A DNA stretch of 64,000 nt from an uncultured Desulfobacterium sp. (GTDB lineage Bacteria > Desulfobacterota > DSM-4660 > Desulfatiglandales > Desulfatiglandaceae), in NCBI GenBank assembly GCA_900258555.1, contig LT984854.1:2301066-2365065 (forward strand). Reading direction: 5' to 3'. The notes under the pieces were generated by a model. The model was not told the origin of the DNA. It saw only the letters and a list, made by a program, of their open reading frames with translations, and ran no database searches. The position numbers were made by a program, and so were the translations under genes. How positions within the stretch are numbered: position 1 is the stretch's first letter; every line of letters starts with the position of its first letter. Below, in pieces: positions 7,069 through 29,921 of the stretch.

Positions 7069-7725
7069 CTATTTGATGACAAGACCTCTTTCCACGGCAA
7101 AGGCGGTCAATGCAGCGGTATTGTGGACGTCAAGTTTCCTCATCAGGTTTGAGCGGTGTTTTTCCGCTGTCTTCAAGCTTATACACAGGTACTCTGCTAT
7201 TTCTCTATTCTTGTATCCTTCGGCGATCAGCTTAAGTATCTCTCTTTCTCTCTCAGTAAGCCCATCCCACGTTGATTTGGTCTTTATAATGCCTTTTCCT
7301 TCCAAATAGCCTTCAATCACCTTTCCGGAGATTTCCGGGCTCAAATAACGCTTACCTTCAACTACATTTTTAATGGCCATTGCAAGCTCAGTGCGTGATG
7401 CATCCTTTAAAACATACCCATCAACACCGGATTGAAGTGCCCATAAGACGTATTCATCTGTCTTGTGAACTGTAAGGGCAATTATCTTTGTCCCAGGTCT
7501 TGTTTTTTTTATCTCCTTAATGGCAGAAAGGCCATCCATCTTGGGCATTGAAAGGTCCATCAGGACAAGATCTGGGACCAGGTTTTCCACGCAGCGAACA
7601 GCCTCGCGCCCATCCCGGGCCTCGCCTATTATCTCAATATCAGGATCAGTGCAAAGCAGCGCACGCAGACCCTCTCTGAGGATGGTGTGATCTTCGGCAA
7701 TGAGTATTCTGGATTTCTTTTTCAT
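7069..7725 (-). CDS. NarL/FixJ-family response regulator
   Basis: 218 residues: an N-terminal receiver (LIAEDHTILREGLRALL, phospho-acceptor Asp in LVLMDLSMPKMDG near 55, the T of IIALTVHKTDEY, K of YVLKDAS) and a C-terminal LuxR-type HTH (LTEREREILKLIAEGYKNREIAEYL, then ISLKTAEKHRSNLMRKL). It should be a phosphorylation-controlled DNA-binding protein. It converges tail to tail with the broken HisKA_3 kinase, which is the typical partner for this regulator class, with only 2 bases between the genes. If the kinase is dead, the regulator has lost its partner or is served by another kinase. The receiver and HTH are intact. Confidence 0.92.
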   Translation of the reverse strand: MKKKSRILIAEDHTILREGLRALLCTDPDIEIIGEARDGREAVRCVENLVPDLVLMDLSMPKMDGLSAIKEIKKTRPGTKIIALTVHKTDEYVLWALQSGVDGYVLKDASRTELAMAIKNVVEGKRYLSPEISGKVIEGYLEGKGIIKTKSTWDGLTEREREILKLIAEGYKNREIAEYLCISLKTAEKHRSNLMRKLDVHNTAALTAFAVERGLVIK

Positions 7726-17228: not shown

Positions 17229-18152
17229 TCAACTTCTATAAACACAACAATCCGGGTGTATTTGCCTGTATTCCATGATAGTATTATCAGACATGGATAC
17301 TATCACCTTTGTCCTGTCAGGCCGTATTATTTCATACCTGGCGAACAGGTCTTCATTAACTGTCATTCCTTTTAAGGCCATAATACTATTGATTCTAGCC
17401 TCTTCTGATTTCAATAATTCCTGAATAATTGCGGCTGCCTTTTGTTTTTTCTTTATTATCGCCTCCTCCCTCTGTCTGATTCTATCTTCATAACGATTTT
17501 CATTAATGAAAATATTATCCGAATTAACATGGAAATCACTGTGCTCAACAGAGGAAGCGACTTCTGATTCGCCCTCAATACACAACTCTGACTCAGGTTT
17601 TGCAAACCCTTTCAATAGTGCATCAATTTCTTCCTGCGATAAAATGTTCTGGTCAAGTGTTTCCCACACCTCTTTGTCTTTACCCGCATTTGCATTTTTA
17701 TGAGGCTGGACGCCTGAATCAGGATCGAGGACGTTACTCCCGGATACCACACTACCTTTCTCAGCCTGGTGCTGGTTAAGCAATGCATCAATGTGCTCCT
17801 GCAAAGCTGCTCCAGTCTCTCTTTGCTCTGAATTGTGAGTTTTATATTCATCCGATTGCTGACCATGTCTGATCAACGCATCAATGTCATTTTTAAAAAA
17901 CGCTTCTGTTTCAGATTCTTCCTGAACCTGCTCTTTGCCTTGTTCCGCTTGAGGAGGGCTGTCCACATCCACCTGCCGACTTAGACTAATTAGGGCATCA
18001 ATGTCATCCTGAGAGATAAGCTTATCGTCAGCACCGGCATGTTGAGGCAAAGGACTATCTTGCCCTTGTACCGGATTATTATTCTCGCTTACAGAAGATA
18101 GATAGGCATCAATATCTTCCTGGCTCATTATCTCTTTTGGTTCGTCAGACAT
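17229..18152 (-). CDS. Protein with five FliM-like CheY-binding peptides
   Basis: 307 residues, acidic and apparently disordered over the first 200. It carries five copies of a short motif: MSQEDIDAYL (9-18), ISQDDIDALI (46-55), FKNDIDALI (86-94), LQEHIDALL (117-125) and LSQEEIDALL (171-180). The last is essentially the N-terminal peptide of flagellar switch protein FliM (LSQ-EIDALL), which binds phosphorylated CheY. No FliM middle domain or SpoA domain follows. Residues 220-262 form a charged coiled coil and 263-307 a small unassigned end. I infer a multivalent receiver-binding scaffold. No flagellar genes are nearby. Start ATG 18152 has only a weak AAGAGA site. Confidence 0.8.
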   Translation of the reverse strand: MSDEPKEIMSQEDIDAYLSSVSENNNPVQGQDSPLPQHAGADDKLISQDDIDALISLSRQVDVDSPPQAEQGKEQVQEESETEAFFKNDIDALIRHGQQSDEYKTHNSEQRETGAALQEHIDALLNQHQAEKGSVVSGSNVLDPDSGVQPHKNANAGKDKEVWETLDQNILSQEEIDALLKGFAKPESELCIEGESEVASSVEHSDFHVNSDNIFINENRYEDRIRQREEAIIKKKQKAAAIIQELLKSEEARINSIMALKGMTVNEDLFARYEIIRPDRTKVIVSMSDNTIMEYRQIHPDCCVYRS

Positions 18153-18474
18153 TTTCTCTTAAAAGACTCGTTAATTATCAACCTGGCGGCATTTTCTTTT
18201 TTACTCGAATACAAACACCACGATGAGTCCGATCATATGTTTTAATCGGCATAAGATAATGAATTCTTTAGGCTCTGCTCCATGATCCGTACTCAAAAAA
18301 ATATATACTTAACAGCAGACAAAGACTTTCTAAGAGGCCATTTAATCACTCTAAATCCTGATTCTTCGGCCTGGCAGTATGGGCATTATGTCTTGAAAGA
18401 TTATTTACCTTTGGTTATGTTCCAATAAAGAGAAAAAGCCATAGTTATTTTTACCTCATGGTGTATGAATTAGG
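18153..18474 (+). other. Divergent intergenic region with candidate promoter
   Basis: 322 bases between divergent genes. TTGAAA (18393-18398), a 17-base spacer and TATGTT (18416-18421) make a candidate promoter for the ABC-F gene 54 bases downstream. A small hairpin CCGAT/ATCGG lies at about 18227-18248. Nothing else is recognised. Confidence 0.4.
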
Positions 18475-27737: not shown

Positions 27738-29921
27738 ATGATCAATCTAAGCGTCTTGGAACGTAAATTCGGACTGATGGTTATCCAAAAGGGCTTTACC
27801 ACAAAAGATCAGCTCACTAAGGCCTTTGACGAACAAAAACTCCGAGCAGAGCAAGGTAAGTCTTTTTTTGTCGCAGATATCCTGGTTGAGGCTAAGGCAA
27901 TTACAGAAGAGCAAAAAAAGGCAATACTTGCGACACAAAGAGAGCTTAAGGAGTTTATGGAGGCACAGGAAAAAGGATCCGGGGCTCTTAGTAGCGAAGA
28001 GCAGAAAAAATCCACCCTTTCAACTCAAGGAAAGCCCGTAGTCGCTTCTCAGGCCCAGAAAAAACCGCCTGATCCAGAGGAAAAGGTATTCCAGAAAAAG
28101 ATAATACTTTCAACTCAAAGAGAATCCGTCGCCACCCCTCAGAAGCAGAAACCAGCGACCGAATCTGAGGAAAAGGTATTTCAACAAAAGACCGTGCTGT
28201 CAACAAAAAGCGAGCTAAAAAAGCCCTCGGATATACAGAAGAAGGACCATCAGCCCGACAAGCAAATAGGGCCTGAGGGATATGAACTTATAGAGGAAGA
28301 TATAGATGAAGGGACTCCTGATGTGGACGGGGCAAAAAGTGTCCAGAATGGTTCCGGTTTTGAGTTGGCAGTTACACAGGACAGGATGAAGGCATATATC
28401 TACCCGATAGATGACAACCCATCTGGAGTCAGCCTTGATAGCATAAAGGGTCTGATTGCAATGGAAGGCCTGAAAATCGGGATTGTCAAGGATGATATAA
28501 TCAATCAGTACCTCATGTCTAAACCCAACAAAGGCAGCCTATGCAAGGTAGCCCGCGGTATACCAGTGGACCTAGGCAGGCAGACAGAGATCAGGTGCCA
28601 CTTTGAAACCAACCCGTTTAAGGTTGCGACAATCCATGATGATGGAAGCATAGATTTCAAAAACAGGGGGGAAATCCCATGGTCAAAGGCCCAGGATCTG
28701 CTGGCAGAGCTAATCCCGGGGACTGATGGAAAACAGGGAAAAGACGTCTATGGTTATCCAATTGACCCACCGCCGCCGGACATGGTCAGCCTGTCCTGCG
28801 GCAAGGGTGTAAAAAAGAGCGAGGACGGCCTTAAGTTTTTTGCTGAGGCTGATGGCAGGCCCGAACTGTCACCTAACGGCACAATCAGTGTGACTGAAAC
28901 CCTTCCGATCTCGGGTGATATTGGAATAGAAACCGGGCATATAATATTTCCGGGGCATGTTCAGGTAAAAGGGTCTGTGCAGGATGGGTACAGGGTAAAG
29001 GCTAAAACGCTTCGGGCTGACGAGATTAATAATGCAGAGATTGAAACAGAGGGTGAAATAATTGTAAACAAAGGCATCATCGGCGCGAAAATATACACAG
29101 ACGGCCCTGTCAGGGCCAGGCATATCCGTAATACTTCCATTGATGCGTTGGGCGATGTCATTATTGAGCGCGAGGTATACGAATCCCATATCGAGACAAA
29201 CGGCACGCTCAATATAGATCGTGGAACAGTCATGGACTCAAGGATTTCAGCCATGAAGGGGATAACTGCCGCTGAGATCGGATCAACCGCATCAAACCCC
29301 TGCACACTGATAATCGGTATTGACAACAGGCTGGAAAAACAAATTACAGTTAAAAATCTTAATATCTCAGAAAAAGAAAAGGAACGAGAAGCAAAATCAA
29401 AACTCCTTGATGAGCTCAAGGATAAACCGGATATGTTGGAGACCCGCATAGGTGAGCTTGCCCAGGAGCAGGACAATGTAACTGTGAAACAAAGGAGCCT
29501 CAAGGAAACCCTGAAAAGCCTCCAAAAGGCCAATGATCGAATCAATATCATAAAGGTCCTGACAATAATGAAGGCCATCAATGTCAAGCTCGAAAAAATG
29601 CAGAAGGATATTGATGACCTTTTGAAAGAGCAAGAACAGACAGAAGCGACTATCGCAGGGTATAATGATGAGATAGCAAAATTGACAAAGGAGATATCTG
29701 AGCTTCAGGACGATATAAAGAGTATGCTTGAGCTTTCAAAAATAAGGAACGTCTCATCATGGGTCAAGGTTACGGAAAATATATATGACCGAACATCAAT
29801 AAGAGGTCGAAACGCTTCACTCGTCGTAAAAGGCACCCTTACCAGGGTAGTCATCCAGGAGACAAAAAACCCTACAGAAGGTGCGGAGCCTTCCTGGTTA
29901 ATGAGTGTGTCAAATTTATAG
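27738..29921 (+). CDS. FapA (DUF342) family protein with N-terminal MshEN-like region and repeat linker
   Basis: 727 residues. Residues 1-75 look like the two-helix N-domain of GspE/MshE proteins (FGLMVIQKGFTTKDQLTKAF; ILVEAKAITEEQKKAIL). Residues 75-190 are a low-complexity linker with three related units around KKSTLSTQGKP, KKIILSTQRES and QKTVLSTKSEL. Residues 205-545 are the FapA/DUF342 beta-solenoid-like region (GTDGKQGKDVYGYPIDPPPP, GNIEIE-type strands such as GDIGIETGHIIFPG, TLRADEINNAEIETEGEI). Residues 555-670 form a long coiled coil. FapA proteins are linked to polar flagellar assembly or cell polarity in other bacteria; no flagellar genes are here. MshEN domains can bind c-di-GMP, which would need testing. 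Confidence 0.85.
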   Translation: MINLSVLERKFGLMVIQKGFTTKDQLTKAFDEQKLRAEQGKSFFVADILVEAKAITEEQKKAILATQRELKEFMEAQEKGSGALSSEEQKKSTLSTQGKPVVASQAQKKPPDPEEKVFQKKIILSTQRESVATPQKQKPATESEEKVFQQKTVLSTKSELKKPSDIQKKDHQPDKQIGPEGYELIEEDIDEGTPDVDGAKSVQNGSGFELAVTQDRMKAYIYPIDDNPSGVSLDSIKGLIAMEGLKIGIVKDDIINQYLMSKPNKGSLCKVARGIPVDLGRQTEIRCHFETNPFKVATIHDDGSIDFKNRGEIPWSKAQDLLAELIPGTDGKQGKDVYGYPIDPPPPDMVSLSCGKGVKKSEDGLKFFAEADGRPELSPNGTISVTETLPISGDIGIETGHIIFPGHVQVKGSVQDGYRVKAKTLRADEINNAEIETEGEIIVNKGIIGAKIYTDGPVRARHIRNTSIDALGDVIIEREVYESHIETNGTLNIDRGTVMDSRISAMKGITAAEIGSTASNPCTLIIGIDNRLEKQITVKNLNISEKEKEREAKSKLLDELKDKPDMLETRIGELAQEQDNVTVKQRSLKETLKSLQKANDRINIIKVLTIMKAINVKLEKMQKDIDDLLKEQEQTEATIAGYNDEIAKLTKEISELQDDIKSMLELSKIRNVSSWVKVTENIYDRTSIRGRNASLVVKGTLTRVVIQETKNPTEGAEPSWLMSVSNL

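Follow-up and report, generated by a model that had tools for sequence, protein, structure and literature searches.

Positions 17229..18152 (-) of the window (the whole stretch of 64,000 nucleotides analysed here) hold an open reading frame (ORF) with an ATG start that codes for a protein of 307 amino acids, characterised from its translation, Pfam and NCBIfam searches, AlphaFold prediction and motif counts. This protein, referred to below as the array protein, is composed of an N-terminal array of five FliM-type peptide motifs followed by a predicted coiled coil and a small C-terminal beta region. The motifs are MSQEDIDAYL (motif 1, residues 9-18; 18099..18128 (-)), ISQDDIDALI (motif 2, residues 46-55; 17988..18017 (-)), FFKNDIDALI (motif 3, residues 85-94; 17871..17900 (-)), ALQEHIDALL (motif 4, residues 116-125; 17778..17807 (-)) and LSQEEIDALL (motif 5, residues 171-180; 17613..17642 (-)). 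Motif 3 is degenerate and lacks the S-Q pair. Motif 5 is one residue apart from the motif of the FliM encoded by the same genome (LSQEEIDSLL, L012). The genes neighbouring the array gene were identified by sequence as a GAPDH-like gene and an ABC-F gene.

The presence of five FliM-type motifs in this single ORF, proposed in the earlier note, was borne out by counting. The core [DEH]IDA[LY][LI] occurs five times in the array protein, once per motif, while its mean number in 20,000 shuffles was 0.0005 and its maximum one. When the protein was scored with a matrix derived from 18 FliM motifs alone, with the query left out, motifs 5, 1, 2 and 4 were the top places, motif 1 being the second best. 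Motifs 5, 1 and 2 scored above all other window proteins tested, motif 4 was no more than level with the highest-scoring of these, and motif 3 was missed. Core counts and BLOSUM62 scores were added because motifs 3 and 4 come out too low with this strict matrix and its small pseudocounts. Compared to LSQEEIDALL, motifs 1 to 5 have BLOSUM62 scores of 35, 35, 21, 29 and 45, and the best remaining place in the protein scores 13. Judged by the matrix and these scores, the array is made of four good motifs and a degenerate one (motif 3). Profile searches built on the motifs of the query itself give circular E-values for the query and were excluded as evidence. Synonymous codons vary among the five motif copies and the linkers are mutually dissimilar; it is therefore the motif itself that appears to have been kept, rather than a recent duplication of DNA.

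No Pfam match was found for the array protein, be it to the FliM middle domain, SpoA/FliMN_C, CheC or the body of CheZ, whose four-helix phosphatase domain (PF04344) gave no match, and the FliL domain (PF03748) was not detected at E 1. The only NCBIfam matches are to the N-terminal FliM peptide (residues 170-187, E 0.0046), which includes motif 5, and to the FliY N-terminus. No hydrophobic segment was seen in the translation. The AlphaFold model, calculated without an alignment, has a low overall confidence. In it, a short helix covers each of the motifs 1, 2 and 5, and a long helix, probably spurious, spans motifs 3 and 4; the linkers between motifs are probably disordered. The best defined element of the model is a coiled-coil-like helix at residues 218-261 (17370..17501 (-)), predicted with pLDDT above 90 over most of its length. 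It is followed at residues 272-306 (17235..17339 (-)) by short strands of low confidence, with a fold that was recognised neither in the model nor in a search with the C-terminus. The description of the protein in the earlier note, no FliM body and a coiled coil after the motifs, agrees with these results. By its sequence and model, the array protein fits a working class, defined in this analysis, of proteins with tandem FliM/CheZ-type motifs, which have at least two IDAL motifs outside folded domains and would bind receivers through them when these are phosphorylated.

A pattern search identified a sigma-28 (FliA)-like promoter sequence, TAAAGAATTCATTATCTTATGCCGATTA, at 18243..18270 (-), between the ATG of the array gene and the next gene and 90 bp 5' of that ATG. 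The site reads TAAAG-GCCGATTA with a spacer of 16 nt, to be compared with the pattern TAAA-N15/16-GCCGATAA. Genome-wide, TAAA-N14-16-GCCGATWW has 20 sites versus 9 for the reversed pattern used as control, and 0.41 matches to the sigma-28-like pattern are expected by chance in the window. Other sites of this kind in the genome precede flgM and cheX, and several of the 20 fall within other genes, probably by chance. Consensus sites for sigma-54 and sigma-70 upstream of the array gene are at chance level. The sigma-28-like site is supportive of membership in the late flagellar regulon, not proof of it. In the same genome, two similar small proteins starting with M(E/D)xSAxMNI (L260:1005-1349 and L268:1650-1964) are each encoded behind a good sigma-28-like site and are possible new late flagellar genes.

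The array gene is found outside any flagellar or chemotaxis operon, a position that counts against the reading proposed below, that of a flagellar CheY-docking protein. The earlier note had linked the array to three receiver proteins encoded in the window. The window contains in fact four receiver domains, none of them sharing an operon with the array gene, and the genome totals 114, so that about 1.3 would be expected per 64 kb; their presence was thus rejected as evidence for docking. The receiver absent from the earlier list belongs to a LuxR-type response regulator (7069-7725 (-)). The window also carries a FapA (DUF342) gene (27738-29921 (+)), of a family tied by name to flagellar assembly.

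Homologues of the array protein were found neither in 46 genomes of the family nor in 85 genomes of the order, where the weak matches were to FliM N-termini, single-motif proteins and unrelated proteins. Phage and plasmid collections contained no relative, and the C-terminus alone as query retrieved nothing convincing. Within the genomes and the phage and plasmid collections searched the array protein is an orphan as judged by sequence similarity, and the missing orthologue is a further point against the same reading. Members of the family keep a pair of PEP-synthase-like and GAPDH-like genes, without the array gene beside it; in the sole genome of the same genus the contig stops within the GAPDH-like gene. 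When 395 genomes of the phylum were searched with a profile at E 1e-4, no further multi-motif protein emerged, but this search was too strict to prove absence, since a DNA scan of another collection did find such proteins.

That scan, run over a genome collection with a DNA pattern that encodes two neighbouring motifs, yielded 81 stretches, 80 of which were read as proteins. Pfam assigned 23 of them to CheC, 23 to FliMN_C (FliY/FliN types), 10 to CheZ, 6 to zinc ribbon and 4 to DUF2497, and many have 3 to 14 motif copies. As the carriers are mostly FliY/FliN and CheZ, with FliL-domain proteins in addition, tandem motifs often occur on proteins known to be partnered with CheY or with the motor. 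FliM and FliY share the EIDALL-type motif with the array protein, but they are C-ring proteins with FliM, SpoA or CheC domains that bear it once or twice, whereas the array protein has five copies and none of these domains. The CheZ carriers resemble it in that peptides of this kind are repeated within a probably disordered tail; they differ by their four-helix phosphatase body. The CheZ of Asticcacaulis (L174) can be aligned to the E. coli protein of the CheZ-CheY structure 1kmi as far as the C-terminal QDQVDDLLD, which is followed by three SQDDIDALF copies. In the CheZ-like proteins of L174, L176, L200, L201, L210, L224 and L239 the extreme C-terminus bears three or four tandem motifs instead of the single one of E. 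coli CheZ.

A further group of arrays, found in Desulfobacterales and related bacteria, ends in a FliL domain (PF03748 in 5 of 8 members), an identity also obtained from a solved-structure profile and from the fold (7sgn, probability 1.00). These membrane proteins (Desulfobacterales, Nitrospinota) have a cytoplasmic N-terminal array of SQDDIDAL motifs spaced by about 30-40 residues, like the array protein, which in contrast has a coiled coil and no FliL match. Some of their genes sit in flhG-fliA-X-DUF6115-fliK flagellar operons: in L179 and L181 they are preceded by genes for an flhG-like ParA and a fliA-like sigma factor and followed by DUF6115; DUF6115 and fliK are downstream in L179 and L191, the latter also with a rod/hook gene; and the L175 locus contains the sigma factor and fliK.

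We propose that the array protein is a soluble multivalent docking protein for phosphorylated receivers of the CheY type, probably belonging to the late (sigma-28) flagellar regulon, and give this reading a probability of about 0.6. EIDALL is the CheY-P-binding site of FliM and FliY (PMC9126983), and CheZ and FliM use the same face of CheY with a similar binding mode according to a passage of PMC3774744 that cites Guhaniyogi et al. 2008. Upon binding, each IDAL motif would become a short helix lying against the alpha4-beta5-alpha5 face of the activated receiver, as do the N-terminal peptide of FliM and the C-terminal peptide of CheZ. With four or five of these handles, joined by flexible linkers and possibly multiplied by oligomerisation through the coiled coil, the protein would gather several CheY-P molecules. 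The array protein would then compete with FliM for CheY-P and might act as a buffer, a sink or a local scaffold. Multivalent receiver docking without a FliM body, the central idea of the earlier note, is in this way supported in part, by analogy with the CheZ, FliY/FliN and FliL carriers, by a single-motif relative encoded beside receivers (see below) and by the sigma-28-like site. Its placement outside the flagellar switch holds for the body of the protein but not for the system, where the evidence points to flagella and chemotaxis.

The main rival explanation is that the receivers docked by the array belong to a phosphorelay outside the flagellar system, with hybrid kinase, Hpt and receiver-TPR proteins, and that the array serves as scaffold of that pathway, like certain single-motif proteins of the same order. 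Six genomes of the order encode such a protein (L104, L110, L139-L142), another non-FliM carrier of a FliM-type motif, which differs from the array protein in its length of ~120 amino acids, its one N-terminal LxQDDIDALL motif, its C-terminal domain and its kinase and receiver neighbours. In L139, L141 and L142 the gene directly adjoins genes for a hybrid histidine kinase-receiver-Hpt and a receiver-TPR protein, not flagellar genes, and in L110 and L139, from two related genomes, a cNMP-PilZ gene is located just upstream; a cNMP-PilZ gene is also found 3 kb from the array gene. The abundance of receivers in the genome, mentioned above, likewise fits a partner of this sort. However, a search of the query genome with the N-terminus of the receiver-TPR protein of those loci, made without positive control, returned nothing close at E 1e-5, and the sigma-28-like promoter and the near identity of motif 5 with the FliM motif of the genome point to the flagellar CheY. 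We consider docking of a non-flagellar phosphorelay unlikely.

Still less probable is a decayed or derived FliM, FliY or FliN that lost its body, retained and multiplied the docking N-terminus and has no function of its own today. The weak NCBIfam matches to FliM and FliY N-termini, the existence of two- or three-motif forms of FliY and FliN and the orphan status of the gene would be accounted for by such an origin, but the SpoA, CheC and FliM middle domains have left no trace, the 307-codon frame is intact and ends in a different, coiled-coil C-terminus, and the motifs were kept while the linkers diverged. Equally improbable, the motifs could be amphipathic helices that resemble the FliM motif and bind something else, or low-complexity chance, as a similar helix ends other domains (e.g., EDIDAFLAGG in the E2 subunit-binding domain) and a few two-motif matches of the scan fall by chance within enzymes (TP_methylase, aconitase), but shuffles never gave more than one core match, the copies lie in linkers and not in a folded domain, and most of the tandem copies of other proteins belong to FliY, FliN and CheZ.

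In textbook chemotaxis each FliM subunit, and likewise each CheZ, contributes a single CheY-P-binding peptide. The motif is known, while its multi-copy arrays on several kinds of carrier appear to be undescribed in the papers searched; a literature search by the letters of the motif returned no paper, which says little as sequences are seldom given in the text. The claim of the earlier note that no system of such design has been described stands for these papers, but with tandem motifs present in many phyla it is not a unique design. We suggest tentatively, at slightly less than even odds, that arrays of docking peptides are a portable, widely used and undescribed module of 3-14 copies, put independently on different carriers in several phyla and concentrating or buffering CheY-P by multivalency. 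The carriers considered are CheZ, FliN/FliY, FliL-like stator-associated proteins, PopZ-type polar hubs, zinc-ribbon membrane proteins and stand-alone coiled-coil proteins. A carrier of many copies that stands alone would draw CheY-P away from the motor, setting a threshold or creating a local pool, and would so alter gain and timing. The arrays found on FliL, beside the stator, on CheZ and on PopZ-type hubs suggest that multivalent capture of CheY-P is a general and testable design.

The scan found additional carriers. Proteins with DUF2497, which we take to be the PopZ family, have two QDDIDALF motifs in an acidic-proline linker in Magnetospirillum/Rhodospirillales (L212, L218, L230, L231), a polar hub bearing CheY-docking-like peptides. 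A Planctomycetes-type family without Pfam match has an N-terminal array followed by a long conserved coiled coil (L177, L182, L185, L188, L203, L204, L228, L235, L236). Lachnospiraceae proteins of ~150 amino acids (L199, L221, L223, L243, L248) contain little beyond four LSQ-EIDALI motifs with a period of 35 residues, and a verrucomicrobial protein of 1003 amino acids (L193:775-3783) has at least 14 motifs, many of them in near-perfect repeats of 21 and 46 residues.
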